Shown in pieces: positions 189 to 59,292 of a stretch of DNA of 64,000 nucleotides. The number at the start of each line of letters is the position of its first letter. Within the stretch, counting starts at the first letter, position 1. A program made the translations under genes and the position numbers. The notes under the pieces were generated by a model, which worked only from the letters and a program-made list of their open reading frames with translations, was not told the origin of the DNA and searched no databases. This DNA comes from Phaeodactylum tricornutum CCAP 1055/1 (lineage: Eukaryota > Bacillariophyta > Bacillariophyceae > Surirellales > Neidiaceae). The stretch covers positions 248,001 through 312,000 of the forward strand of contig NC_011679.1 of assembly GCF_000150955.2 (NCBI RefSeq), given 5' to 3'.

Positions 189-3100
189 ATGTTGTCCACC
201 ACCAATGAATCAACGAAACAGCGATCATGGTGGTCCAGGTACACCTTTAAGATGCATCCAATACACCAGTTGGTACTGCTGGCGGTTGGAAGAATACTCG
301 TGCACCGTGACTCTGTCGTTCTAGGCGTGAACGCTTACGCTCGAGCCTCTGCCCCACCGACGTACCGATCCGGTCCACCGCCGGCACCGGTCTCGGCTTC
401 TTCTTTCACGTACACTCCTCAATCTACCAATCCACGGATAGAATTGTTACTGGATCGAACAGTCCTTTTGTACGATCGAGCTTCATCGCAACAACGGCAG
501 TCATACGAATGGATGATCGATCAGTTGACATCACTGATTGTGTATCTCGGTCAACTGTTGAGTACACAATCCATGGCGCAATCGGCTGGTCCCACAGCAC
601 AACAAATGGCTTTGCAAATAGAAAACGCCTTACTACGGGACATGGACGAAGAGCCCATTGAGTCGCTCGTAGAATCATTGGGAAGTTTGAGACAAACGTC
701 CAGGGATCTTCCGTACCGGGATATATCTTCCGAGCTGCAAGCCGTCGAGTTGCAAATTCAAGCCTTTCAACGAGTGCTTGTATCTACGCAGCCATTGCCG
801 GATACTGGTGACACCCCCTCGTGGTTCCGAGAATATTCTGGTCAGGGACGAGGGATGGCAGATATGGGCGGTACGCAAACTTTGGTCGACGGCAATGCAA
901 ACCGCGACAAGCAATGGTCGGACATCATTCGAGTGGGAATGCAAATTGAAGAAGCCTCGCAGAGAGGAGTTGACCCTTCCACAATAGAAAGTCTAGTGGA
1001 CGCGTATTGGCGAGGCGACGAAAAGCAGATTGACACTCTTTTTGAAACCATGGAACAAGAGGTGGAAGCGGCCGAACGACGGCGTCCTGCGAAATTCGTT
1101 GTTCCAGCGTCCGTTTCGGCTGTAGCCAAGCAGATCGAGGACGCACTTCTAATGGAAGGGGACAGTGATCCGATTGAAGCCTTGCTAAAAGCTAATCGGC
1201 AAAAGACAGCATCGGTATCGTCGCTATCTGAATCAGCCACAATAGAAGTTCCGGAATCTGATGTAGCGGCAGCACCAGCGACTACTCCAGGCAATTTGAC
1301 AGGAGCTCCCCAATTGACCACTGATATAAAAGCAAAGCCAGGCTTTTTGGTCGCAACAAAAGAAAACGCGAATACGCAATTCGATGCCCAATCCGATGAG
1401 TTAAATGTTTTTGTCGAAAAGTACTACGATAGCAAATATGACTTTACAAAGGCTGATCCGAAAGACTCTGTAAAAATGATTGGTTTGGCTTTGGAAGAAG
1501 CGATGGAAAAGGGTTATGATTACGATCAGATTCGAGCTTTGGTAGAAGCTTATGCTGTTGCCAAGCAACTCAATTGCCGCGAGGAAGAAAGAAAGGCGAC
1601 GACTCTCAAAGAATATGCGCCAACCTCGATCGCTCCCGGAACACTCTCACAACCTAAGGGTCAAGCAAAAAGAGCCATATATAGTCCCTTCGAAGATTTA
1701 ATACGGCAAACACAGCAATATTTGGGAGCAGGGGGGAATTCACAGTCAATTGTGAATAAAGCTACAGGCCAGGCTCCTGCGACGGTACGGTCGAAGTCGC
1801 TCTTCCCTTCATTTTTTGGATCGTCACAGGTCCCGAGTCGGAATTTCAAAGATCGCAAGGTCTCCGTCCCCAATGGCATAATATCGACATCTCTGTCGCC
1901 GAAGCCGAAAGAAGATGGTGCGTCAAGGACCACGATCCAAGCACCACGGGAAGGTAAAAAAGCCTCTTTTGATGCGCGTACCATGCTCGGCATAAAACCT
2001 GCCACGAATTCGCGAAGGGTAAAGCCGGTGTCTGAGGAATCCTATGCCGTGCAACAGTTTCGCATCGAAGTGGAGAAAGCAGAGAGGGCCATGCGAACTG
2101 CTCGAATTAATAAGCCACGAATGTCCAAAGAAGAAGAAGATCGACGCCGAGCCGCCGATCGGCGGAGAAGGCGGAGACAGCGAGCGTCTCCCTTCTATTT
2201 CGCTGAGGTATCCAGCACTGAGACTGCACCTCCCGGTCGGCGATCTGGGCCAGGCGTTCGAGGGCAAAAAAGTAATCGAAATAATCCCGAGGTGATTCAG
2301 TACGCACGTCGAATGAAAGAAATAATGCGAGCGCGCCAGAGAGATGCAAATCAGAGGGCGCAGCGCAAGTTAATGGAAAAGCGAGTCGAAGAAAGAAAGA
2401 AGGTACAATTTACAAAAAGGATAAGGCGAATACAAGATGAGGAACTTTCAAAAGCGAAAGAGCGCGTGGTGAAGGAAGCTCGGGGGCAAAAAAAAGCTAA
2501 AACGAAATGCGGCTCTGTATTCTCGACGAAGACGACGTGTTCAGCGCGATCGGGATAGCAGGGCTGTCCAGTTGTCTCGTAGACGGACTCTACGGCAGCA
2601 GCTAGAACAGATGCAACAATTTTCATCAGATATTTCTTGGACGGTCAAGCAGGGCATGGGGACGATCGAAGACTTTGTTGTATCTAGTGGGGCATTTATT
2701 CAGAAGGTAATGAATACTCCCAAGGAAGTTAATGCTCTTTTGGAGCAAAAGAGAGGCATCTCACAATCAATGCGGCCGCCAAAGTTCGCAACGACCATTG
2801 GGCCCTCTAATATACGGACCCAAGACCCATCTCCCTACTTTTTTGCTGAGGTTGTTGGCATAGAACGGTCTACGACTGAGCAGATTGCAGAAGCAGTTTT
2901 TCGCGCTATACGACTCAAAGATGCTGTAGTAGATGTTGCAGTGAAGAGCGGGCCAATTTTGAAGAATGGTGCTGAGCTGAACTTATGGGCTTGGAAACAG
3001 CTTTCAGAAGCCCTTGATAAAATAAATCAAGGCGAGCCAATCATTCCGAAACGAAGAAAAAATCTAGGCACCGACGAAAATATAGATCAGGCAGCTCCAA

Positions 3101-4185
3101 CAGAAGGTACGCAAGCAGTAAATCTGCACGGCGAACCATGGAGCAATCTTGCTCGAGAATGGGATGAACGGAATACTGATTCGGACGACCACTTTCCACT
3201 TGATCCAGCGCCGCCTGTGACACAGCCTCCACTACCGAAATTCGACGTCGCTCCAATGGAGAGCCAAGAGTGGGCAGCCAGTGAGAGCAATCGCGATCCA
3301 GTTCTAAGCAATGGGGTTCACAGTACTTCATATCGGGATGCCGCTACAGACACAGGGGAATGGGGATGGCTCGCTGGTCCCTGGGCGAACTCAGAATTAG
3401 CTGGAAATCAGGAAGGAGGTGGTCAGCAAGTAGACGTTACTTACAATGATTTGGCTAAGGAGTGGGCTGCGCGAAACAGTGATGAAAATTTTGATGCACC
3501 CTTTGGTCGATCTTCGTCGGTACTGGCGCCTGATTCTATGGGCAATCGAGATGCCAATGGCCGGAATGCGAAGTATTCAGACTCAAGGAAACCAAGCACT
3601 TCTTCTTATTTGGGAGACCTCATGGAATGCACAACCGAGGAAGAAATAGTACAGATGTGGGGACAAGTTTATAGAGGTGAGTCGGTGTCAACTCGACTTC
3701 CGAGTGCAGACCAGCTTTTGACTATATCATCTACAGTGGAGTATATTCAACGAAGAGCAAATTATGTGGCCGAAAAGTCGTTTCCCGAGTCGATAGATGA
3801 AAGCGACGATTTTTGCGCAGATGCAGTGTGTTCGCCGGAGTCGTTACGTGAGCTAGACTCTGCTACTAATGGGGATTCTTCTTGCCAAGCGGGAGCGGCT
3901 TCGGCAGAGGAGGTGGATTTCACCACAAATGCCTCTGTACGGGCTCCGCAACAGCCACTCTGGAAAAACTTGGCCAACGAATGGTTAACGATGAATCAGG
4001 ACTCGGCAGAAAAACAAATAGACGTGTATACGCAACGCGAGAAGGGTCGCAATGAAGAACTATCCCCCAGCGGGTCAAAAAGTGGATCAGGTCATCAAGG
4101 TTCAGCTCTAACATATATTGAAACACCATGGCAGGAGCTGGCTGAAGAATGGAACTCAATCAACAATGACTCTTCCTCTCTGTAA
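189..4185 (+). CDS. Repeat-family gene 1 (tandem cluster), frameshifted at an A8 tract
   Basis: No known function is recognised. Two reading frames make one gene: 189-2558, then an overlapping frame open from 2473 to 4185. In that second frame an Arg-rich stretch and 'LRQQLEQMQQ' continue the basic, coiled-coil-like character. The frame changes by one base, most simply in the A8 run near 2488-2495, by a real indel or an assembly error. A hydrophobic stretch at residues 27-48 followed by 'VNA^YARASAPP' may be a plastid import signal, but this is weaker than in the paralogues. Residues 83-121 (LLLDRTVLLYDRAS, YEWMIDQL) match the N-terminal domain of the next gene. Short helical repeats of the type 'QIENALL..PIESLV' follow. 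'SPFYFAEV' near 2190 recurs as 'SPYFFAEV' near 2830. The C-terminal third carries four copies of the family motif (NLAREW, DLAKEW, NLANEW, ELAEEW) at about 3140, 3445, 3960 and 4130. Confidence 0.7.
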
Positions 4186-5218
4186 ACATTCACATAAATT
4201 TAAGAGACTTCAAAGGCAAATAAATACTACAGAAGTATCGGGCTAGTAGGAAGCAAGTTTTGGCCACTGAAGTCCGACTTGATCAAGAATATTTCACGAA
4301 TTGTGTACTACAGGTTTTTTTAGCAGAATGGTCGCCCCACTCGCTTGACACAGGTCCTGCACAGCTTCGCTTTGGGTGGAATTCGTTGCAAAACAAAATT
4401 AAGCGTCGGTGACTGTGAGCAATGATATCCTCGTGGTGATCTGTTCTTCGGCACCACAACATCAGGATTACGATTCTATTCATTGTTGGCGTGTCGCTTG
4501 ACTTAAGGTTCCGCATCGGCAGAAACCATCCATTGCATGGCCATGGCGAAGTCAAACACAGCACACAAAAGTGCTAGAAGTAGAGCTTGCAAATTACTGA
4601 AGAATAAAAAAAGTGAGCATATCATCCGACATGTTCAGTATTAGACACTCCACTAATGTCATGCCCAAACATCTCTTCCTGAGATGTCCTCTTCTAGTCG
4701 ATTGTTTGTCTCAACCCTTGCATTATCCGGGTTAGCATGATTTCGATACCATACACTTTTTCATGAGTGTGAGCTCCTTTCAAATTAGCGAGAGAGCCAC
4801 CTTTTAAAACCTCATCATCAGACATAAATGATTTTAGATAAAAACCATCATTCTATAAAATTCGATTAATGAAAAATACTAACTTTCAATGAGCATTTTG
4901 AAAGCGTTCTATACTCCGTGCGGCCAAGAAAACTCGAGAATTACAATGAGCACGATTTGAAAGTGGACATGCGGGCGGCTATAATATCAAAGTCAGTCAG
5001 TACATCGCTTTCGACACAAATTTAGCCAATCAAATCATCTCGCTGTCAGCGAATGTTGATGAAGCTGTCACGAGGAAGATCCGTGTACGGTCTTCTTTTG
5101 GCGAGGCTTCTAAAAAGTACATACATTGACCATGACTCGCAGCATTAGCAACGGGCTTTATAGGATCCCTAGCAGCATTCTCCAGACCCTTTCCGAACCT
5201 AGAAGAGGAAAACGTGAC
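4186..5218. other. Intergenic, 1.0 kb, between repeat-family genes 1 and 2
   Basis: No supported gene. It is AT-rich around 4800-4880. A TGACTGTGA motif lies at 4410. A CCAATCA box at about 5026 precedes a leader that resembles the one upstream of gene 3. A 93-codon ORF on the minus strand (4283-4564) has no recognisable features. Confidence 0.6.
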
Positions 5219-7978
5219 ATGCTACGTTCTTTTAGGCTTTGCCTTTTCTTGCTTGTATTCGTTGCAACAACACAAAAGTTAAAGGCTTTTCAACCCTCGT
5301 ATAGAAGTTCCGTTTCACGTCGAGGAACCTCCTGCTGTCACATTCGTGAAAGCGTCTCATCATTGCTTCCGTCCCTCCTGCGATCAAATACTGAGCTCAA
5401 CGAATCTCGCGGTAACAGCAATAATGTTCCCTTTCCTGCTCCGCGACTAGAGTTCGAGTTGGATCGCGCGATTGCATTGTACGAGCAGGCGGTTTCGCTG
5501 TCTTCGCTGGAAGGCGAAAAAAACAAGGCGTCAGCTTCCTACGGTTGGATGGTGGAGCAACTGAGCGGTTTTGTGCAGTATCTGGTTCAAAACAGTAAAT
5601 TCAAAGAGTCTTTGAAGAAAAAGATAATGCAGGCGTTACAGCAAGAGCAAGTTTCGACACTTTTGGCTTTGCGTGGGGAGTACCGGACAAGCAGCAGTAA
5701 AGATGGCGCTGTTACTTCGTCGTCGCTTTCCCAAGAGGAACTAAAAACTGTACAAACGCAGCTCAATCAGATCGAAGTGCTTTTGAATAAATCTTCTGGC
5801 GATGACGAAGAGTCGCAAAAGATAATTGACATGGCGACACAGATTGTTGGGGAAGCATTGAAGGATGGTGATGATCCCGAGCAGTTCGGGCCCATCTGGG
5901 ACATCTATAAGCGAGCCAAGATGCGACGAGAGCAAATTGATATTACTGGAAAGCAGAACGATGTACCTTCTTTCTTTTCACCGAAAGCGCCGGTAGTGGG
6001 GTACAAGCCATCGTCTGCGACGAAATCAACGCAATCGTCACCTCCCTCGCCGGACAAGGCTACCAAGGCCTCTGCCGCTTCCTCAAAAGATCGCAAAGAC
6101 ACTTCTCGCATGAACAAGGTTGAGCAGACGCCGAAAAGTACATCGTCGTCCAAGGACCAGGACTCGCCTTGGGACGCCATTTCCCGAAGCTGGGAGTCTT
6201 TCACGACTTCGCTGACACGTGGCTTTTCCCCCGGCAATGAAAAGAAGGTGGAAGAGAGCCAACCGACTGCGAAAATGGCGGACAATGACTTCAAAAAAGC
6301 TGCCGATAGTATCAGCCAATCTCCCATAGAGTCCGAGAAACTTTACAAGCAGCGGAGTACCAAAGTGGCTGCAGCGGAAGCTGCCGGTAAACAATCTCGT
6401 TGGGGTAACGCCGAACTTGATCGTGTCCGTCCTGGTAGCTACGTGGGTTCGGCTACACGAGAGAGTGCCATTCCGGGCGACTCCGTTACCAGCGTATCGC
6501 GAGCATTTGTCGATCCGACACCGGATGGGGGTCCTAAGGTGGTGTCGCAGTCGCTGTACAAAGAAGACTCTTCAAAGAAAAAGCCTTCTACCAGTACACT
6601 CACGTCGCTTGGCGCAGGAAAAGATTCTGCAGATCTTTATCGACAACGAGAAGCTCGGGTGCAAGCCGAAGCTGCATCGGGAAAATCTCGTTGGGGAGAT
6701 ATGGAAATCAAACGCATGGAAACCAGAGGTATCAAAGCACCTGACAATTTTATGCAGACGGCCGGGGAATCCGGTGCCAGAGGATCGACGTTTGATGAAA
6801 ATTTGTACAAGCAGCGTGGTGCCCGGATTCTAGCGGGAGCGTCTGCGGGAAGAACAAGGTGGGGGCAGGATGAAATTCGTCGCGCCGCCCTTGGCGATTC
6901 AAAGAGTTTGGGAAGTCTGGACAGAAGCATATCATCCACAGGTAGAAGCATTTCCCAGTCGAATTCTTTGGACCCTATTCCTCCAAATGTACCGTTGAGA
7001 TTCGTTATGGACACACCTCATCGTTATCAGGGGCGGAATGATCTTGAAGGATCAGGTCAAGGCTCTACAATTCAAGAGAGACCAAATACAAATATTGCAC
7101 ACACCCCTGTGCCGATACCGCCAAATCCTCCTTTTTTCACCCCTGCGGCTCCCTTACCGGTTTCTTTTCAACAAGGATCGCCATCAGTGAACGACCTTAC
7201 TTCTGCGTACGCATCAATGTCGAAGGAAACTCCTGAAGGTGGCACCGGCTCGCTGTCCAATAGCATTCCACTCGTGTCGAACGCTGTTCCATCGCCGACA
7301 AGCGAAACGAAGACTCCTCGTTCTTGGAGTGGGATAGCAGAAGAGTATACTGCCACCAGTCGTGAAATAGCGGAAAGTAACGATGCGTCGTGGGATGTCC
7401 TACCACCAAACACTCAAGGCCCCAACAATCTTGCAAAGTATGCCCGATACAAGAACATAGCGGAAGGGTGGGCGCTTATGAGTAAGGGAGCTGATATTGG
7501 TCCAACATCGATTGATGGAAAGTCGTCGCATTCAAAATCTTCCTCGTCCATTGATGGGGCTAGACAAAACGGAGTTGATTTGGCGAAGGAATGGGCACAA
7601 ATGAATCAAGGTACAGATACTACATCTCCAACGCCAGAGACGAAGGCGTCCCAGCGTAAAGATGAATCCACGAGCTCGTCACTGGCGCCCCCAAAACCAA
7701 CAAACTTTCGGATTACCCGAGTTGTTGAGGATGGGACTGCGGGGAATTCAGCCTGGAAAAGCCTTGACATCAATTCGAGGCAGACTTCTGAGGAGGAAGA
7801 GCTTTCTGCATCATCAAAGGACTTTACAGGTCTTGCCCGAGAGTGGTCGGCAATGAATAAGAGTGGAGGCAGTGCTCCAAAGGGTACTCCGGTGGCTGGA
7901 TCGGCTTCCGATTACGGCAACCTTGAACGAGAGTGGTCTCGGATGAACAGGGGTAGCGGCAAGGATTGGAAAGATTAG
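5219..7978 (+). CDS. Repeat-family gene 2, plastid-targeted low-complexity protein
   Basis: The start is placed at the ATG at 5219, because it begins a clean signal peptide (MLRSFRLCLFLLVFVATT) ending in 'KA^FQPS', the Phe+1 signature for import into the complex plastid. The frame is open upstream to 5126 but the extra residues are not signal-like. An N-terminal helical domain (LDRAIALYEQAV, YGWMVEQLSGFVQYL) is shared with gene 1. Three 'RWG' modules follow (near 6398, 6690, 6856), each of the form LYxQRxxxVxAxxxxGxxRWGxxEIxR. The C-terminal half carries five tryptophan or tyrosine motifs (IAEEY, IAEGWALMSKG, LAKEWAQMNQG, LAREWSAMNKS, LEREWSRMNRG). The spacers are rich in Ser, Thr, Pro, Gly and Lys and look disordered. 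It bridges gene 1 (helical domain) and genes 3 and 4 (RWG module). Function unknown. Confidence 0.8.
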   Translation: MLRSFRLCLFLLVFVATTQKLKAFQPSYRSSVSRRGTSCCHIRESVSSLLPSLLRSNTELNESRGNSNNVPFPAPRLEFELDRAIALYEQAVSLSSLEGEKNKASASYGWMVEQLSGFVQYLVQNSKFKESLKKKIMQALQQEQVSTLLALRGEYRTSSSKDGAVTSSSLSQEELKTVQTQLNQIEVLLNKSSGDDEESQKIIDMATQIVGEALKDGDDPEQFGPIWDIYKRAKMRREQIDITGKQNDVPSFFSPKAPVVGYKPSSATKSTQSSPPSPDKATKASAASSKDRKDTSRMNKVEQTPKSTSSSKDQDSPWDAISRSWESFTTSLTRGFSPGNEKKVEESQPTAKMADNDFKKAADSISQSPIESEKLYKQRSTKVAAAEAAGKQSRWGNAELDRVRPGSYVGSATRESAIPGDSVTSVSRAFVDPTPDGGPKVVSQSLYKEDSSKKKPSTSTLTSLGAGKDSADLYRQREARVQAEAASGKSRWGDMEIKRMETRGIKAPDNFMQTAGESGARGSTFDENLYKQRGARILAGASAGRTRWGQDEIRRAALGDSKSLGSLDRSISSTGRSISQSNSLDPIPPNVPLRFVMDTPHRYQGRNDLEGSGQGSTIQERPNTNIAHTPVPIPPNPPFFTPAAPLPVSFQQGSPSVNDLTSAYASMSKETPEGGTGSLSNSIPLVSNAVPSPTSETKTPRSWSGIAEEYTATSREIAESNDASWDVLPPNTQGPNNLAKYARYKNIAEGWALMSKGADIGPTSIDGKSSHSKSSSSIDGARQNGVDLAKEWAQMNQGTDTTSPTPETKASQRKDESTSSSLAPPKPTNFRITRVVEDGTAGNSAWKSLDINSRQTSEEEELSASSKDFTGLAREWSAMNKSGGSAPKGTPVAGSASDYGNLEREWSRMNRGSGKDWKD

Positions 7979-9269
7979 TGGCAACATTTGGGTATATTTC
8001 GATCTGGACAATATTCACGTTGAGCCGACATGAGGATCGAAAATGGTAGTAGGTAGCCCATTCGCACCCACTTTGTAACTGTATGGGGCATGGAAATAAT
8101 ATATGTATTAAGATTAGCACCTTTTTGTTGGACTTTACGCCGCTTCCTCGGGATCGCGGCTTGTGCCACCATTTCCGACGCCGTATCTATAGCTTACTAG
8201 CCCATTCTACAGTCGATGTTAGGGTTGAAACGCTCGTTCTTGGCAGAGCTGATGGTGGCATCGCAATTGCAATTTTTCTCACTCATTCGCATCAGAATTC
8301 ACGCACCCATCCATACTTACAGCTACCAAAAGCGAATGAATAGCGTCAGCAAATCTTTCTTACATGTGATCCAGCAGAGCGGACAAAAAAACCTTTTTGG
8401 GAACCGCAAACCTGGGAATATAAAGATCAGATAATGTTCATCCGTCGCGAGTTTCGTAGTGTTGACGGTTCCCCGCGACCGCATTAGGCTCTACCATCTC
8501 ATTTCGGAATGAACTTAAATTGCAGCAAAACGAAACATAGCTAGGTCTCTAGCGTCGCAGCCTTGTTATCCGATCCCAAAATTTTCTTGTTTATAGGATC
8601 GTATCGTTTTACTGTTAGATACTGAAATATTCACAGTCAGATAATCAATTGGAGCATGTCAAGCAGCGATGCATCGGCTCCGAGCCCTAGAGTAGCATTG
8701 TTATTTCTGGAGTTCACAGAAGGCTTTTTGACTCTGTCGAGATAAAGAAGCATTTGTTATTTTCCTACTTACCTGACATTAACTATAATAACCGTAAGGT
8801 AGAGTCTGTTGGTCCGAAGTGCGGCAACTGAATAACAAAAAACCAAGTGCCCGGCACGGATTCCAAAACGTCTCACAGTCAAGTTCATACGACTCATGAC
8901 CTGTCATTTATTTTGAGCGCCCTTTTTCGTATTTGAATCTTGTACCCCAAACCCGGGGCAATGGTAGAAGGACGTTTTCAACGATTTCGTCCGTCAGTCT
9001 ATCGTCTCGAGCAGCAATTTCATCCAATCAAGTTGTTCGCCATTCGTCATTCGTCACCGGAGGTTGATGCAGCTGTCACCGGGAGGATACCGATACGCGT
9101 GCGTGTACGATCTCGAAATCTTTGGACACGGCAATTGCGCGGGGGGCGCCAAGGACGAATGGCTCCGGAACCGCCGTCGCGAGTCTACCGACCCCGCCGT
9201 CGCAACTCCTTCAATAGGACCGACTTTCATCCCGAGTCGGTAGTAACAAGACAAAGAATACGTTCTATC
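7979..9269. other. Intergenic, 1.3 kb, between repeat-family genes 2 and 3
   Basis: No supported gene. It holds two TCACAGTCA motifs (8631 and 8873). A leader from about 9023 (CCAATCA, then a 'gcagctgtcaccgggagga' stretch) parallels the leader of gene 2. The open frame 8940-9269 ahead of gene 3 lacks a targeting signal and is read here as 5' UTR. Confidence 0.6.
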
Positions 9270-10907
9270 ATGTGGTCTTATTCTCAGACCTCCCTGTTGC
9301 TACTTGTGGTACTCGCAACGACGACACCTCACGTGCGAGCGTTTCAAGCATTGGAAAGCTCGATTGTCCGTCGCGGAATCTCCTCGTCGACCTTACCCGT
9401 AACAGCGTCTCCCCCTCAGACTCTACTGCATGCGACTTCCAACAGCAATCCCCAGTTCGCTGCGGGTCCGGATGGAAAGACGTTCGTTCACGTAGCGGAC
9501 CCGACTTCGATTGACAATCGCGGTTCTCCTGCGGGGCAGCTTTTCCAAACGCGCAATGCCCCACCGAGGGCCGCGACCATGAGCAGCCGAGACGCTCGTT
9601 GGGGGCGCGTCGACGTCGATACCGGACGTCCCCTGTTCGCCATGAGTGTGGCTGCGGGCGCTTCTCCGGGTGATCTCGCGAGTGGTGTATCCTCAAGAAA
9701 CAGTGGGCAGCAAGGATCTACGGCGAACCTCGCCCAGGAGTGGTCTCAGATGAACAAGGGTAGCGAAGGTGCTTCGTCGTCGCAGTCCAACGTTCGCGGT
9801 GTTTCTCCCCCGGGGCAGTCTTCCATGTACGGGAACTACGCGCAGGACATGTCGCAGGTGAACACTTTTGGAGGCAATGTGAACGATAGTGGCGTATCTC
9901 CTGCCGGACAGCTTTTTAAAATGGGCAAGGCCAAGACGGCGGCATCGCTCGGTTCCGGTAGAGACTCTCGTTGGGGCCGCGTCGAAGTGGATACCGCCCG
10001 TCCCATGTTCGCCATGAGCGCGGCTGCCGGAGCTTCTCCCAATGATCTCGCGAGTGGGGTGACTGCCTCGTACCGCGGAGTCAGAGGATCAAGTCCGGCT
10101 TCTGCCGCTGACGGCAATCTAGCACAAGAATGGTCCAAGATGAGCGGGGGTCAAGACGGTGACGGATCTCCCGCAGGACGAATCTTCAAGAACAGAAACT
10201 CTCGGACACTTGCGCCGGCTCCTGAGACCAGAGACTCTCGCTGGGGACGTCTCGACGTTGACACTGCCCGGCCGCTTTTGTCCATGAGTGTGGCTGCCGG
10301 GGCGACTCCCAGCGACCTCGTGGTCCGCCGACCCTCAAGAGCCGATGGATACAGTCAAGCTTCCAACCTTGGATCCCCATCAGCCCGTAGCGCCAACACG
10401 GACAAGATGCTGGCCGAGTCTTCCTACAGCAGAGATTCTCGTTGGGGTCGTATCGACGTCGATACTGGCCGTCCCATGTTCGCCATGAGCGCGGCTGCCG
10501 GAGCTTCTCCCAACGATCTCGCGAGCGGTGTGTCCCCAAGAGGCCGCGGAGGTAGTCTCGCCCCCTATCAGAGTAACGAAAGCCAGAACAGTGGAGGATC
10601 TCCGGCGGGGCGATTGTTCCAAACGGGAAACGCCAATACGGCCGCACCTCGTGGGGGTAGCCGAGATTCTCGTTGGGGTCGCGTCGAAGTTGATACCGCC
10701 CGTCCCATGTTCGCCATGAGCGCAGCTGCAGGAGCCTCTCCCAACGATCTCGCGAGCGGTGTGTCGGCAACGTTCAGAGGAGATCAAGGATCGACCTTTA
10801 ATGGCAACCGAAACCAGCAAGGTCCCTCGAGTTCGACTGCTAGAACGTCGACAGCTTACGGCAACCTAGCGGAGGAATGGTCGCAAATCAACAAAGGTGG
10901 AGACTAA
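9270..10907 (+). CDS. Repeat-family gene 3, plastid-targeted RWG-repeat protein
   Basis: The frame is open from 8940, but the start is set at 9270, where MWSYSQTSLLLLVVLATT forms a signal peptide cleaved before 'FQALESS' (RA^F). That is the diatom plastid presequence pattern. The mature part is almost entirely repeats. Five modules run 'SPAG(Q/R)(L/I)F', a short linker, then 'DSRWGR(V/I/L)(D/E)VDT', 'RP.FAMS', and 'AAGASP.DLASGV'. Their RWG arginine codons are at 9597, 9969, 10239, 10440 and 10671. Family motifs NLAQEWSQMNKG, a degenerate YAQDMSQVN, NLAQEWSKM and NLAEEWSQINKG are interspersed. No catalytic domain is visible. Spacing between modules is irregular (67-124 residues), so the array is older or more shuffled than in gene 4. 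Confidence 0.82.
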   Translation: MWSYSQTSLLLLVVLATTTPHVRAFQALESSIVRRGISSSTLPVTASPPQTLLHATSNSNPQFAAGPDGKTFVHVADPTSIDNRGSPAGQLFQTRNAPPRAATMSSRDARWGRVDVDTGRPLFAMSVAAGASPGDLASGVSSRNSGQQGSTANLAQEWSQMNKGSEGASSSQSNVRGVSPPGQSSMYGNYAQDMSQVNTFGGNVNDSGVSPAGQLFKMGKAKTAASLGSGRDSRWGRVEVDTARPMFAMSAAAGASPNDLASGVTASYRGVRGSSPASAADGNLAQEWSKMSGGQDGDGSPAGRIFKNRNSRTLAPAPETRDSRWGRLDVDTARPLLSMSVAAGATPSDLVVRRPSRADGYSQASNLGSPSARSANTDKMLAESSYSRDSRWGRIDVDTGRPMFAMSAAAGASPNDLASGVSPRGRGGSLAPYQSNESQNSGGSPAGRLFQTGNANTAAPRGGSRDSRWGRVEVDTARPMFAMSAAAGASPNDLASGVSATFRGDQGSTFNGNRNQQGPSSSTARTSTAYGNLAEEWSQINKGGD

Positions 10908-11485
10908 CCTGACCTCTAGCGCAAGAGTGATCGCAGATTATTAAATAGTAAGCAAAGAATGGACGTCAAGGTTACTTATAACGACTAGTAAGGATGCTAA
11001 TTGGCCGTGGAACAATGACACAACCAACAGTGGATTCGTGAACCTGCGGAATCTGAAGGAACGTAGCCGACAACATGGCGGGTCTCGTGAATTCATGCGG
11101 TCACTGCTACTTGTCACAGTAGCGTGAAAATTCCGTTCTTTCGGTTTTCGCCAATTCACTGGCGATTGTGTGGTTCCTTCCCCATCCACTTCCCCATTCC
11201 CCAATGGTCGCCAACGTCAATTGTGTTGAGGGCAAAGTAGAAAACGAAAAATTGGACGGCCAATGAATTGATTGCCGGTTGTCCAATAGGCTGTTTAGGT
11301 AGAAACACTCGACTGTGGACTGATTGGCAATAAGGAGGAACAAATCACGAGCATGTTGCAACCCGCACAAATTTGATTTACAATGACTGCTATTAATGTA
11401 ACAGAACAGCTTACACTTAGTTTCCAGAATTTTCAGTCTTATTAGTCCAGATGGTTGCCGACGTTTCCACCTCACAGTCAGTGGC
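10908..11485. other. Intergenic before the LTR-like repeat
   Basis: No gene is seen. A TCACAGTCA motif (11472-11480) lies immediately before the LTR-like repeat. The 143-codon minus-strand ORF overlapping 11107-11538 runs into the repeat and shows no family similarity. Confidence 0.55.
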
Positions 11486-11838
11486 TGTTGAAATCTCGAC
11501 CCTCTCTGTTCACTCGACGTAGGAAAACAGTTAGTCAACTTCCTTCCAAACTCTTGTTCTTATTGTGACGTTGAAATCTATTTTCTAATGTGTTTTTTTC
11601 ACACGATCAACTTCGCTCATTTCAATTGCTCAATCTCGCTTACATTCGCTCTTGATCCAAATAATCATAATTGAACTTCATTTGCTTCATCGCACATAGT
11701 CTTGCTTTCCTAACCAGATAATTTCATCACATGACTAAACATAGTTTCTGCACCACGTCAGTTAGACGTTCGTCCGTTTGTTCCTTTATCACAGGCAGTC
11801 CGTAGTACGGACACATGACTGACGGTCATTTGACGACA
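11486..11838 (+). mobile_element. Solo-LTR-like repeat, copy A
   Basis: About 353 bp, beginning TGTTGAAATC and ending GACGACA, so it has TGT...ACA termini. It matches the reverse complement of 50332-50678 along its whole length. Near-identical 6-bp direct repeats flank it (AGTGGC at 11480, AGCGGC at 11839), consistent with a target-site duplication. It has no coding capacity. Near its 3' end it contains short inverted repeats (AACGTC/GACGTT, ATGAC/GTCAT, TCCG/CGGA). The best reading is a solo LTR of a diatom Ty1/copia-type (CoDi) element, left as a fossil after LTR-LTR recombination. The imperfect flanks and divergence from copy B suggest it is not very recent. A non-autonomous element of another class is the alternative. 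Its 3' end lies 152 bp before the start of repeat-family gene 4. Confidence 0.65.
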
Positions 11839-11989
11839 AGCGGCATCCGAGCAATGTAACGGCTGTCAACCGTCGTATTATCTCATTTGTTCCGTAAGGG
11901 GTTTGTGTCGCAGCTTCCAAAGACTGACCATGCCGAGGAGCAGTTCTGTGCTCAAAATAAAATCCACTGCATAACGAATAAGAACTATC

Positions 11990-13912
11990 ATGTGGACCTT
12001 TTGCCGGTTGTCCCTGTTCTTGGTAGCGGTGTTGTGGACGACGAGCCCCCATGTACAAGCTTTTCAAACCTCCGATCCATGGTCGAGATTCCGACACGGA
12101 AACTCGTTGGCGTTTCCTCCGCGTTCGTCTCCAAAAGTGAAGCTGCACGAGGCTTCGAACAACATCGATGCTTCGAATCCCAATTCCTTCACTGAGTCTG
12201 TTAACTCGTACACGGATACGAATCCCACTCGCGTATCTTCTGCGGATGCCAGGCTTTTCGAAACTCGCGAGGCCTTCGCAGTCGCAGCGACTGACTCACG
12301 GAAAGGAGCTCGTTGGGGTCGTCTCGACATCGATCACGCAAGTCCCAGTCTCGCCATGAGTGTGGCTGCGGGAAATACCTTATTGCCGAGAAATCCAGGG
12401 AACCAAGCTCGAAAGACTCAGAAAACCAAAGCAATCACGGCGACCGACTCACGGAAAGGGGCTCGTTGGGGACGTCTCGACATCGATCACGCAAGTCCCA
12501 GTCTCGCCATGAGTGTGGCTGCGGGAGCAACCCCAAAGACAACTAGTGCCGTAGTTGGAGTGCCGTCAAGAGTCCGTGGAGCTGGAGCGTCCAGTGCGTC
12601 GTCGGCGTACGAAAATTTGGCGCGGGAATGGTCGCAGATGAACAAAGGCAGAGACAGCGAAGTCCCACCAAGTGTGTCGCCTACAAGTGCCTCGAGCAAG
12701 GAAGCCGTATTCGCAGGAAATGATTCTCGGAACAGAGCTCGCTGGGGGCGTCTAGATATTGACCACGCAAGTCCAAGTCTCACCATGAGTGTGGCTGCAG
12801 GAGGCACCTCCATACAGAAAACTGATGTGAACCGAGCTCCAAAAACTCAGAAAAGCAAAACAGTCAAAGCGTCAGACTCCGGGAGAGGAACTCGTTGGGG
12901 TCGTCTTGACATTGATCATGCAAGTCCAAGCCTCACCATGAGTGTGGCCGCCGGAAACACGTTATTGAAGAAAAATCCTGCGGACCAAGTTCTAAAGACT
13001 CAGAAGAACAAAACAGTCAAAGCGACAGACCCACGGAAAGGGGCTCGATGGGGTCGGCTCGACATTGATCATGCGAGTCCAAGTCTCGCCATGAGTGAGG
13101 CTGCCGGAAACCTGTTGTTAAATAAAAATCCTGCGGATCAAGCTCTAAAGACTCAGAAAACCAATTCAATCACAGCGACAGACTCACGGAAGTTAGCTCG
13201 ATGGGGTCGGCTCGACATTGATCACGCAAGTCCAAGTCTCGCCATGAGTGTGGCTGCAGGATGCACCACTATGATCAATTTACCGTCAAACGCACGGGCA
13301 GCTATCAGATCGACTACCAATGACAAGTCACAACAGCTACTCCCATCAATTCCTGGTCGTAATGCGTCTTCTTCTTACGGCAACCTAGCCGAGGAGTGGT
13401 CGCAGATGAACAAGAGCCGAGACAGTGAAGTCGCGGCTCCGTCGCTACCTCCTCCGCGATCGCAATCGGTAGCTGGGGATACTGTGTCACAGGGAAAGGT
13501 GACTAGTCCTGCTCCTAGTGCGTCTTCTTCTTACGGCAACCTTGCTGAGGAGTGGTCGCAGATGAACAAGAGCCGAGACAGTGAAGTCGCGGCTCCGTCG
13601 CTACCTCCTCCGCGATCGCAATCGGTAGCTGGGGATACTGTGTCACAGGGAAAGGTGACTAGTCCTGCTCCTAGTGCGTCTTCTTCTTACGGCAACCTTG
13701 CTGAGGAGTGGTCGCAGATGAACAAGAGCCGAGACAGTGAAGTCGCGGCTCCGTCGCTACCTCCTCCGCGATCGCAATCGGTAGCTGGGGATACTGTGTC
13801 ACAGGGAAAGGTGACTAGTCCTGCTCCTAGTGCGTCTTCTTCTTACGGCAACCTTGCTGAGGAGTGGTCGCAGATGAACAAGAGCCGAGACAGTGAGGCA
13901 ATGGCTTCGTAG
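11990..13912 (+). CDS. Repeat-family gene 4, plastid-targeted, two tandem-repeat arrays
   Basis: The N-terminus MWTFCRLSLFLVAVLWTT is a signal peptide ending 'QA^FQTSDP', the plastid import signature. Array 1 has six copies of 'ARWGRLDIDHASPSLAMS' followed by 'VAAG'. Their RWG arginine codons lie at 12311, 12464, 12740, 12893, 13046 and 13199. All are spaced 153 bp (51 residues), except one 276-bp gap that contains a LAREWSQMNKG motif. Array 2 (13364-13905) has four copies of a 52-residue unit beginning SSSYGNLAEEWSQMNKS. The gene lies 152 bp after a solo-LTR-like repeat. A short upstream ORF (11930-11974) sits in the leader. No enzyme domain is visible. It resembles gene 3 most closely and is probably a disordered plastid scaffold or linker protein, which is an inference. 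Confidence 0.82.
   Translation: MWTFCRLSLFLVAVLWTTSPHVQAFQTSDPWSRFRHGNSLAFPPRSSPKVKLHEASNNIDASNPNSFTESVNSYTDTNPTRVSSADARLFETREAFAVAATDSRKGARWGRLDIDHASPSLAMSVAAGNTLLPRNPGNQARKTQKTKAITATDSRKGARWGRLDIDHASPSLAMSVAAGATPKTTSAVVGVPSRVRGAGASSASSAYENLAREWSQMNKGRDSEVPPSVSPTSASSKEAVFAGNDSRNRARWGRLDIDHASPSLTMSVAAGGTSIQKTDVNRAPKTQKSKTVKASDSGRGTRWGRLDIDHASPSLTMSVAAGNTLLKKNPADQVLKTQKNKTVKATDPRKGARWGRLDIDHASPSLAMSEAAGNLLLNKNPADQALKTQKTNSITATDSRKLARWGRLDIDHASPSLAMSVAAGCTTMINLPSNARAAIRSTTNDKSQQLLPSIPGRNASSSYGNLAEEWSQMNKSRDSEVAAPSLPPPRSQSVAGDTVSQGKVTSPAPSASSSYGNLAEEWSQMNKSRDSEVAAPSLPPPRSQSVAGDTVSQGKVTSPAPSASSSYGNLAEEWSQMNKSRDSEVAAPSLPPPRSQSVAGDTVSQGKVTSPAPSASSSYGNLAEEWSQMNKSRDSEAMAS
13364..13905 (+). repeat. 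156-bp tandem repeat array inside repeat-family gene 4
   Basis: Four copies of a 156-bp unit begin at 13364, 13520, 13676 and 13832; the last is cut short by the gene's C-terminus. By eye the second to fourth copies are identical and the first differs at only a few bases. Each unit encodes 52 residues with one NLAEEWSQMNKS motif and a Pro-rich linker. Such uniformity implies very recent expansion or gene conversion. Copy number is likely to vary between strains. Confidence 0.9.
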
Positions 13913-14616
13913 CTGACTCGCAAAAAGGTCAATCACTGACTATCGCTGACGGGGAAGAATCGCTTGTTCAGCTGGTTATTTCTGTGACTGAAGATCAGAT
14001 CCTTTAGAAAAATTTCAATTCGCTGTACCTTTTTTTGTTGGCAGCTCGGACTGGAAATACGGAGTGTACAGTTTCGACGACGAAGCGGGCTGTCTTTTGT
14101 ACACAAGTTTTCTTGTATCCCATTAGAAATTGCATGTAGATAGTGTTTTGCGGTCTACCTCAGTCGACGAGGGGGGAGCATGAACCGCAATATGGGTATA
14201 GTGGCTTGAGTTTGACGCAATTAATGTACGGGACAGATGGTAACGTTAGGATTTGTTTGATCACTCCGCAACTCTTGTAGAATGATAGTTTCACGTTACG
14301 TAGTTGACTGAAAGAAATGAGTTAGCGAACTGTAAATGAAATGATCTGCTTTCACGTCAATGCATAGAGAGAGATATACTTCTTCGTGACCGACGCCTGT
14401 CAATGCGATGTCTTTTTCTTTTTTTGGTTGACTCGTATGAAACTTGGTCGAATGTGACATTAAACTCACACCATTCCCGCCCCCCTACCCCCCCCTTGAA
14501 ATCTTACCGGTGAAGCGACAGAGACCCTCCATTTTTACGTTGTTGCCGACCGTCACAATTTACATTGCATCAATCTTGTGTTGAACCCAATTATAACAAG
14601 ATTCTGATAGTGTGGG
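13913..14616. other. Intergenic, 0.7 kb
   Basis: 3' flank of repeat-family gene 4 and promoter region of the tRNA methyltransferase gene. It contains a C-rich tract (14476-14497). No ORF or RNA gene is supported. Confidence 0.55.
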
Positions 14617-15447
14617 ATGACGACTGAGACACGAGTAGCTACTATTGCAACTGAGTCGAAAGGGAAAGATGGCACAAAGCGCAAGGCCGCTCCCATCACG
14701 TTGGACGGTGAAAAGCCACAGAAAAAGTTTTATCGTCAACGCGCACACTGCAACCCGTTGTCCCACAACGATTCATTCGACTATCCAGTCAAGCCTCTTG
14801 ACATTGATTGGACCGAAGATCATTTTCCTGGTCTGGAGAAAGGAAGCGTTCCCACCGTACTTGATATCGGATGTGGATTTGGTGGCTTGACAATGGCTCT
14901 CGCCCCACTTCTACCAAGCCAAATTGTTCTTGGCATGGAAATTCGTGCTAAGGTAACTGAATATGTGCGCTTACGCATTGTAGCTGCTCGGAAGGAGCAA
15001 GAAGGAAGGTACAAGAATGCCAGCGTGTTGCGGACAAACTCGATGAAATTTCTGCCCAATTTCTTTGGTAGGTCCTCTCTCGAGAAGCTCTTTTTCTGCT
15101 TCCCGGATCCGCACTTCAAGCGGAAAAATCACCCGCGTCGTATCGTTTCGGAGCGGCTTCTGTCCGAATATGCATACGTACTCAAGCCATCCGTAGGGCG
15201 TTTGTATTGTATCACTGACGTTAAGGAACTGCACGAATGGCATGTGGAAAAATGCGAAAGACACCCGTTGTTTCGACGTGTTGAAGACGAGATTGCGGAA
15301 ATTGACCCGTGTGTACAAGCCATGAAAATCGAAACGGAAGAAAGTAAGAAAGTGGCCAGGGCCGGGGGCGAGAAGTATTACGCGGTCTTTGAACGAATCA
15401 GTATCGACCAGGCGACGGAAATTACCTCTACCAATTTCTTTCATTGA
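14617..15447 (+). CDS. METTL1: tRNA (guanine-N7-)-methyltransferase (Trm8/METTL1/TrmB family)
   Basis: A 276-residue single-exon protein that transfers methyl from SAM to N7 of G46 in tRNA, as the catalytic partner of a Trm82/WDR4-type subunit in eukaryotes (family knowledge). The Rossmann SAM motif 'LDIGCGFGGLT' lies near residue 80. The family motif 'FCFPDPHFKRKNHPRRI' near residue 160 and 'YVLKPSVGRLYCITDV' near residue 190 follow in the right order. The N-terminal 'KKFYRQRAHCNPLS' is typical of eukaryotic METTL1. No organelle targeting signal, so cytosolic or nuclear. It converges on the RlmN gene with 178 bp between stop codons. Confidence 0.95.
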   Translation: MTTETRVATIATESKGKDGTKRKAAPITLDGEKPQKKFYRQRAHCNPLSHNDSFDYPVKPLDIDWTEDHFPGLEKGSVPTVLDIGCGFGGLTMALAPLLPSQIVLGMEIRAKVTEYVRLRIVAARKEQEGRYKNASVLRTNSMKFLPNFFGRSSLEKLFFCFPDPHFKRKNHPRRIVSERLLSEYAYVLKPSVGRLYCITDVKELHEWHVEKCERHPLFRRVEDEIAEIDPCVQAMKIETEESKKVARAGGEKYYAVFERISIDQATEITSTNFFH

Positions 15448-31144: not shown

Positions 31145-31818
31145 GAGGAGCAGAAACGTAGATAAATTGACTTAAGGGCCAGTATCCCCATAACCTCAGT
31201 AGGGGTTTTGCTTTGCCATGACTGTACAGACTCACCCGGCGGTCATTCCGGAACACAAATCAAGTTTTTAAAAACTTGATATTGACTGTGAGAATATGCA
31301 GCTTCGATTCTCCAATGGATAATTTTGATAAACTGGTCCGTGGGGAGTGATGAGGTTAGACGCTTAAGGCACAAAAGCTATCTTCATCCTCCACAAATGA
31401 CCTGGAAAGCTGTCTCTCCAATTTTGCAGCCACCAACAAACAAATGCAATGCCTGACTGCTTGATGAGATGTATTAGATTAAGCGGCCGATGCCGTATAA
31501 ACGATTCCAACCCCAAACTTAACGAACACCTTCCAATCCAGTCCTCTCCCTCTTAAATCACCACATACCTTGTGATTCTATCTCACTAAATGTATGCAGC
31601 ATTCGTTGGTAGTGCTTCCCAACCGTCGGTTGTTGTGAGGAGCGAACGGTAGAGGGAGGGTTTATCTACATTATGGTACCAGTATAGCGACAAAAACAAT
31701 AAAACATGACACAACAGCAACTGTAATGTAACTACTTTTTGAAAATCCGGGTTTTTATAATAAAACATCCAACATTTTCGAAACACGACACACAAAAAGA
31801 TCCCTCTGTAAAAGTACC
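31145..31818. other. Intergenic, 0.7 kb
   Basis: Holds a 22-bp perfect palindrome (31259-31280), a TGACTGTGA motif (31283-31291), and AT-rich sequence ahead of the mannosidase gene. No gene seen. Confidence 0.5.
31259..31280. repeat. 22-bp perfect palindrome
   Basis: Centred on AAGTTTTTAAAAACTT, about 115 bp after the NmrA-like stop codon. It can form a strong hairpin in RNA and overlaps a region where a 3' end would be expected. The role is unknown. Confidence 0.6.
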
Positions 31819-34800
31819 ATGGCGAAGCAGCTCGTCTGGGGAGCCGTTCTTTCGGCGGTGCTTTTGTTATTGTGCTGGCGCTTCAAAAGATCATTAGATG
31901 ATCGTTTGATTGCATCGTTAGGTGAGCCTTCGAGGCTGGTTGTCCAAAGTTCCTCGCCAAAGAGTTCAAGCAAACCAACACCTACGCTGGACCAGAGCCC
32001 CCACCACTCTTTTCTACGCAAACTAGGAGTAGACGATCACGATGGCGATGGAGGCGATGTTCATAACGGCAAAGTCCTTTACGTTCACATTGTTCCACAT
32101 ACGCACGACGATGTGGGATGGCGTAAAACCGTTGAGCAATATTACTACGGCCTCAACAATTCCATCGATACTAGAGGTAGCGTACACTCCATCATCACGA
32201 CCGCCGTGGAATCACTTTTGGACGATCCAGCGCGTACCTTTACGTACGTGGAAATGAAATTTCTCTCCATATGGTGGAAGTCTCAAAGTGACCAAATGAA
32301 AGACAACGTTCGCTACCTAATTGCCAACAAGCAGCTATCGATTGTCAACGGAGGTTGGTGTATGCATGACGAAGCGGCGCCCCACTATATCGGGATGATT
32401 GATCAGACAAGCTTGGGACATGAATTCCTTACTCGTGAGTTAGGAGTGATACCTAAGGTTGGCTGGCAACTCGATCCTTTCGGTCACTCCGCGACGCAGG
32501 CATCCTTGATGTCGCGTGGTATGGGATTCGATGCACTATACTTCGGTAGGATTGATTATCAGGATTTACGGCTGAGGCAGTTAACACGTCAGTGCGAGGG
32601 TTTGTGGAACGCATCAAGAGAGTCGTCAGACATCGCATTACCAATCTTTTGGGGGCTGACGGGAAGCTATGGAGGAAACTATGGTGCCCCGCGAGGTTAT
32701 TGTTTCGACGTATTGTGTCAAGATGAACCTCTGGTCGGTGCCAACGAAACGAGACTACGGGAACGGCTTCGTACGTTTTTGGAAGATGTGCGTATACAGA
32801 GTGATCGTACCCAGGGTGATCACGTTATGGTGACAATGGGTGAGGACTTTAACGTAAGTGGTGGGGGTGAAAAGATCGATGCAAGGATGCTGCCAAATTG
32901 TCAGTAGGATTCCTGACCTGCATTTTTATCTCCAAATTCCAGTACATACAAGCGCATTTAAATTTTGCAAATATGGATCTATTGATAAACTCGATTATGA
33001 GCTACCAGCATTGGAAGATTCTGGATATACCGTCTATCTTTGGTCCCCAGTACGATCGAGTCGACATCTTCTATTCAACACCGGACTACTACACAGAGAT
33101 GAAGTACAAAGAGACGGTCCGTGTTCGCAATAGACCGCGGACTATGCAACGCGGGACATCCAATTCAGCTGTAGGACAACAAGGACAACACGTGTCGGAG
33201 AGTCCAGTCTGGGTAGTCAAAACGGACGACTTCTTCCCGTATTCTGATTGTGAGCATTGTTTCTGGACAGGTTATTTTACCTCTCGTGCATCTTTCAAAC
33301 GGTTTGAACGTGTTTCGTCTTCTTTTCTTCTGGCTGCCCGACAAATTGAGGCATTGTGGAGTGGACAGAGTAACAGCACGGGTCAAGGTATGGAAAGTCG
33401 TCCCCTGTTTGCACTCGAGGATGCTTTGGGTATTGCGCAGCATCATGATGCCGTGTCTGGTACGGCAAAGCAACACGTAGCGGATGATTACAGTTTCAAA
33501 TTACAAACTGGTTTGGATCTTGCTTCCAAGTTTGTGGCAAAGACATTAAAGAATACGCTGATATCGGACTCAGGGCTGCTGGAAAACTTGACTTTCTGTC
33601 ACCAGTTGAATGAATCTATTTGCGATCTTTCACAGGATGCCACGAAGTCTCTTGGCAAGGATCTTTATGTTGTTGTTTACAATGCAAAAGCCTCGGAGGT
33701 ATCCAGCATTATCCGACTACCGGTCTCTACTAACCAAACGTACCTTGTTGAGCGTGTGGAGCGTAACGCAACGGTCGCGAGGTCGAGACTTGTGGAGACT
33801 GTACAAGCCGTCAACCTCCGGACTACTGACAAACCGAGGTATACCGTTATGTTTGACACTGGTCCCCTTCCTCCCATTGGTGTTGCTTTATTCCGCGTAT
33901 CTATGACAAATAAAGTCTTCTCTAGTTCTTTGAGATCGAATGATTTGACGGAAACTCGACGTCTCTTTCGAGCTGCCGACGGCAAAGATGTTGTAGTATC
34001 GAATGAACTTCTCTCAGTAACCTTTGACAGCTCTACTGGAATGATGAAACAGGTATTCTCTCAGAATGTGAGCCTTCTGCTTACGCAGGAATGGGGGTAC
34101 TACACGTCTTTCGACTCGGACTATGATAGAACGGAAGTGCCCTCTTCACGTGCCGATCAAAATTCAGGAGCCTATGTGTTTAGACCAAGCACTCCTGAAG
34201 AAAAGCTTAAGTTGATGAATGCGTCGCCTAGCGGTGCAAAGTTCGTCGATACGTCGGTGGGAACTGAAGTACACGTAGCATTTGATGCGCCCTGGATTAG
34301 GCAAGTGACTCGCATACTGAAAGGTCAGCCATACGTGGAAATCGAGTATACCATCGGTCCAATTCCGATCGATGATGGGCGCGGAAGGGAGATTGTGAAT
34401 CGATACATAACTCCAATTAAATCCGAAGGCAAGGTGTACACAGACTCGAACGGTCGCGAGTTTCTGGAGCGACGCCGCAATTACCGTCCAAGTTGGTCTT
34501 TGGAGGTTTACGAACAAGTGGCCGGGAACTACTACCCGATCAACGCAGCCGCTTATATTGAAGACAGCGACGCGGCTTTGTCAGTGGTCGTGGATCGGTC
34601 CCAAGGTGGTGGCTCTATTATAGATGGAACGTTGGAGTTCATGGTGCAGCGTCGGACTGTGGCGGACGACTTTCGGGGAGTAGACGAACCGTTGAACGAG
34701 ACGTGTGGCGGTATGGAGCCGTATCCTCCGTACGGGGACGCAAAACGCGTGGGTGACGGCGTGGTGATTCGTGGCGTCCATCGGCTATTGGTGGGAGCAA

Positions 34801-35285
34801 AAGGGGCTGGGTTGGCTAGATCCCAGATGGACGCCACGTTTGCGGAGCCATTAATCTTTGTGGCATCGTCGCCCAAACCGTCTACACCAGTAGGCGCACT
34901 AGTCGCTACGCAATCATCTCTTTCCGCTCTGCAATTATCGTTGCCATCAAATGTAATGTTGATAACGTTGATGCGTCTTCAGGATCGGGAGCGACCGACT
35001 TGGCTCCTGCGATTGGGTCATCAGTACGCTGCGGGTGAACACGAGGTTCTTTCTCAGCCGGCCAAGGTAAATCTCGCCACGTTTCTAGTGGATTGGGATG
35101 TGTCCAAGATCGAGGAAAAGACCCTGTCGGGCAATCGGGATTGGGACGTTTACACGAAAGAACGCTACGACTGGACGGGAGAGCTAGACGCGAGTGAGAC
35201 CACTGATGCTCCCATAGACTCTATAGTTGTCCTCCAACCTATGCAGATTCGCACCTTTGAAATTACCGTGACGGCCAAGACATAA
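31819..35285 (+). CDS. MAN2B1: Lysosomal/vacuolar-type alpha-mannosidase (GH38)
   Basis: Exons 31819-32853 and 32943-35285, intron 89 bp (GTAAGTGG...TTCCAG), giving 1125 residues. A single N-terminal hydrophobic segment (LVWGAVLSAVLLLLCW) is a signal anchor or signal peptide. GH38 motifs are 'HIVPHTHDDVGWRKT' (zinc ligands His and Asp, about residue 92) and 'GWQLDPFGHSATQASLM' (catalytic nucleophile Asp, about residue 217). 'LYFGRIDYQD' and 'LEDALGIAQHHDAVSGT' are also present. The 'DPFGHSATQ' and 'GRIDYQD' forms and the late 'RPTWLLRLGHQYAAGEHE' fit the lysosomal group more than Golgi mannosidase II. It removes mannose from N-glycans in the lytic compartment or secretory path. Confidence 0.93.
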
Positions 35286-59230: not shown

Positions 59231-59292
59231 GCGGACTCGCGCATTTGTCACTTTTTGATGTAATGGCACCGTGTTTTATTGAAATGTTATTT

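Follow-up and report, generated by a model that had tools for sequence, protein, structure and literature searches.

What is encoded by the four adjoining plus-strand genes that fill the first 14 kb (positions 189-13912) of this stretch of Phaeodactylum tricornutum DNA (NC_011679.1, positions 248,001 to 312,000; 64,000 nucleotides, hereafter the window)? Numbered 1 to 4 along the strand, the genes encode proteins that each bear 3-5 tryptophan-containing copies of a short motif of the LAxEWxxMN type, one of them C-terminal, separated by poorly conserved spacers. The proteins of genes 2-4 also carry modules centered on RWG. The initial annotation had described four adjacent same-strand genes with these two motif types in this distribution, and our counts agree with it. 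The first motif is already in print, as the helix by which the pyrenoid linker PYCO1 binds the Rubisco large subunit. Judged from sequence, the four proteins are probably multivalent Rubisco-binding proteins of the diatom pyrenoid, acting either as linkers or as clients. They may help to gather Rubisco in the pyrenoid, the site of CO2 fixation in diatoms.

The W-bearing copies numbered 16 (4, 4, 3 and 5 in genes 1 to 4), and 13 of them fitted the pattern [LI]AxEWxx[MIR]N. At the DNA level, the core GARTGGNNNNNNATGAAY was matched 10 times in the 64 kb, always within the cluster, and never in 100 dinucleotide shuffles. Over 14 copies, the column information peaked at about -7 to +8 around the W, with a tendency toward an aromatic residue at -7, N at -5 and L at -4. 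We compared the codons of 13 copies, leaving out three copies of the gene 4 array. The same residue was found in 60% of 702 codon pairs across the core (-4 to +4), and in only 9% of 1326 and 8% of 612 pairs in the flanks. Of the 254 same-residue pairs found at L, A, E and N, 169 used differing codons. Since identical residues were mostly written with different codons, the conservation is that of the protein and not of the DNA alone.

PYCO1 (Phatr3_J49957) is a basic, repeat-rich and mostly disordered pyrenoid linker of P. tricornutum with prion-like domains, a transit peptide and an isoelectric point (pI) of 10.03 (PMC10288592). By cryo-electron microscopy, its AAEWGSMNQ string (577-585) is helical and lies in a cleft, mostly hydrophobic, of the Rubisco large subunit. 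There W580 occupies a pocket of F102, F104, L361, F366 and F482 and bonds to D92, and N584 bonds to Y89 (PMC10288592). A second string, ASEWASMNT, may bind in like manner, and W580 lies close to the C-terminus at residue 592 (PMC10288592). The A, E, W, M and N residues stand at identical spacing in the window motif and in the PYCO1 helix, and AxEWxxMN is kept exactly in 9 of the 16 W-bearing copies. A C-terminal copy is present in all four proteins, followed by 10, 13, 8 and 14 residues after the W in genes 1 to 4.

To score this likeness, a matrix was built without PYCO1 from 14 copies in the window, array copies identical over -8 to +11 being counted once. It gave 17.0 bits to AAEWGSMNQ and 18.7 bits to ASEWASMNT. 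Among 2,000,000 random 9-mers with the composition of these genes, one scored as high as the former and none as high as the latter, and shuffles of the two strings with the W fixed gave 0.0027 and 0.00076. Of the 96,228 9-mers read without stops from the six frames of the window, none apart from the 16 copies scored above 11.1 bits. The lowest window copy scored 18.2 bits, so that one PYCO1 string falls slightly beneath the window range. In the literature searched for the motif strings, the PYCO1 paper was the sole match. Its authors mention that variants of the helix exist in other proteins, which the main-text passages do not name, and propose that such variants may play the part of the shared EPYC1-type motif of Chlamydomonas (PMC10288592). 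Among the matches listed for diatom pyrenoids, no other title or abstract opening describes proteins of this kind, and supplementary protein lists, such as the 89 potential Rubisco-interacting proteins in Dataset S1 of the PYCO1 paper (PMC10288592), may do so. The initial annotation had recognized no described family in the cluster. For LAxEWxxMN, which matches a characterized protein, the word undescribed fails; it still fits the RWG module and the searches of Pfam and NCBIfam, which returned no match above cut-off.

RWG occurred 3 times in gene 2, 5 times in gene 3 and 6 times in gene 4, giving 14 modules. In genes 3 and 4 the module comprised about 39 aligned residues, with 11 invariant columns across 11 copies; gene 2 has RWG and the upstream L[FY] element alone, and lacks the second half of the module. 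The upstream element, L[FY][KREQ]x[RKG], was found 7 times in the three proteins and every time ahead of an RWG (7 of 14 modules), compared with a mean of 0.0135 and a maximum of 1 in 2000 shuffles. The module shows an alternating pattern (R-L-D-I-D ... L-A-M-S-V), and AlphaFold placed two strands in five of the six gene 4 copies, at very low confidence. Such a module may serve as a second sticker. No convincing outside match to it was obtained in Pfam/NCBIfam, profile and viral-contig searches. A likeness of the RWG profile to six neocarzinostatin sequences, with expect values (E) of 0.02-0.035 over 27 residues, was judged a chance resemblance of β-strands.

The proteins also resemble one another outside these counts. 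Gene 3 matched gene 4 with E 5e-53, and gene 2 matched gene 3 with E 1e-6. Genes 1 and 2 shared a 50-residue N-terminal stretch (38% identity, E 3e-7), and the second frame of gene 1 had the motif alone in common with gene 2 (best E 0.15). Upstream of genes 2 and 3, blastn found a short common block (Table 1), with no comparable block between any other gene pair. On sequence comparison, common descent is thus supported for genes 3 and 4, genes 2 and 3, and genes 1 and 2. The initial annotation had given genes 1 and 2 a shared N-terminal domain, which was borne out for the 50 residues only, the remainder of the region aligning weakly. Its description of gene 2 as an intermediate fits, in that gene 2 joins the N-terminal stretch of gene 1 to the RWG element, which genes 3 and 4 also have, and stepwise duplication and remodeling, as it proposed, may account for the cluster. 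For the N-terminal domain, AlphaFold run on gene 2 together with gene 1 gave helices at a mean predicted local distance difference test (pLDDT) value of 45, too poor a model for a fold search, and the N-terminal profile gave only weak matches in the PDB (E 0.41 and 1.2).

Plastid targeting is expected of a pyrenoid Rubisco linker. In diatom plastid presequences, an F follows the signal-peptide cut (A^F), and a basic, Ser-rich stretch comes after it. Judged by eye and by hydropathy, the leaders of genes 2, 3 and 4 ended, after a hydrophobic core, in KLKA^FQ, HVRA^FQ and HVQA^FQ, with peak 10-residue hydropathy values of 3.35, 2.78 and 2.65. The A^F endings reported by the initial annotation were therefore seen in all three, and plastid targeting of genes 2-4 is supported as a prediction. 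The same annotation had extended this targeting to all four proteins, and in gene 1 no clear A^F leader was seen. The mature proteins of genes 3, 4 and 2 had pI values of 10.15, 9.95 and 8.8, and the two frames of gene 1 had 9.55 and 4.95.

These features suggest how the proteins might work. In the stroma, each motif would fold as a helix on Rubisco, with its W inserted into the hydrophobic cleft beside the dimer-dimer interface and its N bonded to the large subunit, on the model of PYCO1. A chain with several such stickers, each of them weak, would hold Rubisco or cross-link it. The main role of genes 3 and 4 would be that of linkers, with RWG as a second sticker, either for self-association or for Rubisco. 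Genes 1 and 2 would add their extra domain to the matrix and may connect it with a different part of the pyrenoid. That genes 3 and 4 encode true Rubisco linkers of the stickers-and-spacers kind is close to an even chance on the present sequence data, and genes 1 and 2, with their further N-terminal domain, may be tethers. The sticker spacing was 52 residues in the gene 4 array, 30-84 in gene 2 and 56-173 in gene 1; the gene 4 value lies inside the 20-120 residues that separate repeated structured elements in the FLIPPer rule (PMC11570498).

Several observations weigh against a Rubisco-binding role. The PYCO1 authors rate the helix contact as relatively weak, a C-terminal PYCO1 fragment carrying both motifs gave no Rubisco shift, and recruitment of Rubisco by PYCO1 required the KWSP tryptophans (PMC10288592). 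KWSP, from the small-subunit sticker KWSPR/Q, was absent from all six frames of the window. Since the helices alone gave no shift and KWSP is missing, a scaffold role would need the additional helix copies or the RWG module; otherwise the proteins would be clients. The motif itself is imperfect, with 7 of the 16 W copies deviating from AxEWxxMN. In gene 1, M is replaced twice by R and once by I; gene 2 has IAEGWALMS and LEREWSRMN, and gene 3 has LAQEWSKMS and LAEEWSQIN. The spacing is uneven, and the gaps of 173 residues in gene 1 and of 249 and 256 in genes 3 and 4 exceed the FLIPPer range. Just 7 of the 15 tryptophans of gene 2 fall inside the two motifs. The hydrophobic moments of 13 motifs were middling (51st-96th percentile of these proteins), and those of the PYCO1 9-mers were low (0.13 and 0.16). 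A charge-hydropathy estimate of disorder gave values near the boundary, that of gene 3 falling within the ordered range, and the AlphaFold model of gene 4 with gene 3 was uninformative (mean pLDDT 31), with two of the five gene 4 motifs helical. Gene 1 has no clear plastid leader, its hydrophobic stretch being weaker (hydropathy 2.54) and without A^F; no alternative 5' exon with a convincing leader was found among the 12 most hydrophobic of 82 open GT-AG combinations. CO2-responsive promoter elements were not enriched overall upstream of the four genes. The counts were 0, 0, 0 and 2 for genes 1 to 4, in 188 bases for gene 1 and 500 for each of the others, against a window average of 0.42 per 500. 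Finally, the likeness to PYCO1 was found post hoc, from a hunch about W-repeat linkers.

These points bear differently on the explanations that may be offered. A narrower form of Rubisco binding makes the proteins clients or tethers and not linkers. The motif would be an address tag into an existing PYCO1-Rubisco matrix, where the proteins would serve some other purpose, for example to attach the shell, tether thylakoids or recruit enzymes. This is a serious possibility, if somewhat short of an even chance. The weakness of the large-subunit helix alone and the proposed EPYC1-like part of its variants (PMC10288592) speak for it, as do the large N-terminal regions that genes 1 and 2 have of their own. 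Genes 3 and 4, by contrast, contain little beyond the two W motifs and the spacers between them. These motifs account for all 8 tryptophans of mature gene 3 and for 11 of the 12 of gene 4, and such a makeup is scaffold-like. If the partner were instead another plastid protein, for example a light-harvesting or shell protein, the PYCO1 likeness would be convergence. Short linear motifs converge easily, the aromatic residue at -7 and the L at -4 lie beyond the span of the published PYCO1 9-mers, and the deviating copies would fit as well. We consider this unlikely in view of the five residues in register, found twice in PYCO1 and with the same C-terminal placing.

Two further explanations set Rubisco aside altogether. 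Cingulins, which belong to the diatom cell wall, have W-rich domains, and the genes might encode silica-associated, W-rich secreted proteins of that kind, the leader being a secretion signal only. The hydrophobic leaders of genes 2-4, the repeats, and the high Ser, Gly, Ala and Pro content of the mature chains (37-47% together) would agree with this. It is nevertheless very improbable, because diatom plastid presequences are marked by A^F and then a basic, Ser-rich stretch, and the W motif matches a solved Rubisco-binding helix. The repeats might also be a minisatellite expansion without function, as the gene 4 arrays of 156 bp (98%) and 153 bp (81%) could suggest. Across the genes, though, the core held 60% residue identity through codon turnover, beside flanks at 8-9%, and this explanation is hardly credible. 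Multivalent Rubisco binding thus stays the reading that we prefer.

The features are collected in Table 1. Genes 2, 3 and 4 are single open frames, and the likely starts M5219 and M9270 of genes 2 and 3 sit within longer ones. Gene 1 consists of two overlapping open frames, 180-2558 and 2473-4185, so that joining them needs an intron or a frame shift; the region from about 2300 to 2755 offers many open GT-AG introns. The repeat SPFYFAEV of the first frame returns as SPYFFAEV in the second, which suggests that the two frames belong to a single gene. A run of eight A at 2488-2495 lies within the frame overlap (2473-2558), where an intron, a frame shift or a sequence error is possible. Gene 4 contains two coding tandem arrays, that of 156 bp and that of 153 bp at 12735-13261. 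Their copy number, and with it the number of stickers, may differ between strains.

Table 1. Positions, within the window, of the genes, repeats and motif copies of the cluster
Feature	Position	Strand	Description
Gene 1	189..4185	+	N-terminal region partly common with gene 2, basic middle, four C-terminal LAxEWxxMN-type copies; from open reading frame list
Repeat SPFYFAEV, gene 1	2187..2210	+	First frame
Repeat SPYFFAEV, gene 1	2830..2853	+	Second frame
Sticker LAREWDERN, gene 1	3148..3174	+	Motif matrix
Sticker LAKEWAARN, gene 1	3451..3477	+	Motif matrix
Sticker LANEWLTMN, gene 1	3970..3996	+	DNA pattern and motif matrix
C-terminal sticker LAEEWNSIN, gene 1	4138..4164	+	Motif matrix
Upstream block, genes 2 and 3	5045..5080 and 9053..9088	+	36 bp, 81%, blastn E 3.6e-5
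Gene 2	5219..7978	+	A^F leader, stretch common with gene 1, 3 RWG modules, 4 stickers
RWG modules, gene 2	6398..6865	+	RWG at 6398, 6689, 6857; LY[KR]QR upstream of each
Variant sticker IAEGWALMS, gene 2	7457..7483	+	Motif matrix
Sticker LAKEWAQMN, gene 2	7580..7606	+	DNA pattern and motif matrix
Sticker LAREWSAMN, gene 2	7832..7858	+	DNA pattern and motif matrix
C-terminal sticker LEREWSRMN, gene 2	7922..7948	+	DNA pattern and motif matrix
Gene 3	9270..10907	+	A^F leader, 5 RWG modules, 3 W stickers and 1 degenerate copy
RWG modules, gene 3	9597..10727	+	RWG at 9597, 9969, 10239, 10440, 10671
Sticker LAQEWSQMN, gene 3	9729..9755	+	DNA pattern and motif matrix
Degenerate copy YAQDMSQVN, gene 3	9837..9863	+	M replaces W; natural variant without the key residue
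Sticker LAQEWSKMS, gene 3	10119..10145	+	Motif matrix
C-terminal sticker LAEEWSQIN, gene 3	10866..10892	+	Motif matrix
Gene 4	11990..13912	+	A^F leader, 6 RWG modules, 5 stickers
RWG modules, gene 4	12311..13255	+	RWG at 12311, 12464, 12740, 12893, 13046, 13199; partly 153-bp tandem array
Sticker LAREWSQMN, gene 4	12617..12643	+	DNA pattern and motif matrix
Tandem array, gene 4	13351..13896	+	156 bp, 3.5 copies, 98%; four LAEEWSQMN at 13385, 13541, 13697, 13853

Database searches added little to this picture. In Pfam and NCBIfam, no family scored above cut-off with five translated pieces of the four genes; DUF6229, Proteasome_A_N, DUF4357 and YQBQ, which appeared in Pfam for genes 3 and 4, were all below it. 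A 20-residue motif profile (13 copies) found nothing among PDB sequences. The strings of PYCO1 itself were equally blank there, so that PDB searches could not have revealed PYCO1 and are uninformative either way. A single window motif and gene 4 likewise had no match in the PDB, and those of gene 2, to a heat shock 70 protein (E 0.059) and at E 1.9, were taken as chance. Gene 3 gave 23 pattern matches in prokaryote species genomes, none of them confirmed. Viral contigs gave 8 matches with the RWG alignment, 1 with gene 2 and 8 with gene 3, again with none confirmed.

The G+C fraction was 0.50, a value that, together with the A^F leaders, points to a diatom. The downstream neighbor of the cluster, at 14611-15447, is an ordinary methyltransferase (Methyltransf_4, E 2.7e-45). 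Elsewhere in the window, an alpha-mannosidase (glycosyl hydrolase 38) at 31732-35282 lies in two overlapping frames, implying another intron or frame shift. A gene of the squalene-hopene cyclase type (37193-40245) has about 300 open codons ahead of its domain and continues to its end in a second frame (39754-40245). A 102-bp tandem repeat at 59029-59232 (two copies, 86%) spans the end of a Rap/ran-GAP frame.

Diatoms have a proposed share of about a fifth of global primary productivity (PMC10288592), and the authors of PYCO1, using BLAST, found its homologs in no other sequenced algal species (PMC10288592). The cluster offers four candidates with the same large-subunit helix, as named genes to examine, together with many-copy stickers that could be used to build pyrenoids elsewhere. 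It would point to a common Rubisco address motif in the red-type pyrenoid, parallel to that of the green type. We tentatively propose a further step, which we regard as possible and no better than that. The cluster would be a second Rubisco-linker system of diatoms beside PYCO1, contained in one tandem cluster and using two Trp stickers, the large-subunit helix and the β-hairpin-like RWG. It would have arisen from an older tether, already equipped with an N-terminal domain, that gained modules. If this is true, A-x-E-W-x-x-M-N would be the general Rubisco address of the red-type pyrenoid.

Comparison with known systems places the cluster nearest to PYCO1. Besides the sources cited at each point, PMC13159521 was drawn on. 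The window proteins and PYCO1 share motifs of the type A-x-E-W-x-x-M-N, one of them C-terminal; in the PYCO1 structure this motif is a helix with a W-centered contact to the large subunit. PYCO1 is basic and repeat-rich, and the mature proteins of genes 3 and 4 resemble it in this, with a pI of about 10; genes 2-4 have plastid-type leaders where PYCO1 has a transit peptide. The window proteins differ in lacking KWSP and the self-association motif GTGYNP, which was also absent from the six frames of the window, and in having 3-5 W-bearing stickers of the large-subunit type against two in PYCO1. The RWG module of genes 2-4, a string that is not in the main text of the PYCO1 paper (PMC10288592), and the further N-terminal domain of genes 1 and 2 also set the window proteins apart. 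Linkers are little conserved between species (PMC11570498). Compared by description, EPYC1 of Chlamydomonas and CsLinker of Chlorella are similar in general plan, being disordered chains with repeated short Rubisco-binding helices (PMC10288592, PMC11570498). CsLinker, like PYCO1, binds the large subunit (PMC11570498), whereas EPYC1 binds the small subunit (PMC10288592). For genes 1 and 2, a parallel is BST4/RBMP1 of Chlamydomonas, in which motif copies on a disordered C-terminus are joined to another domain (PMC11638005). BST4, however, is a predicted bestrophin-type membrane protein whose motifs contact the small subunit (PMC11638005), and no Pfam domain was found in genes 1 and 2.

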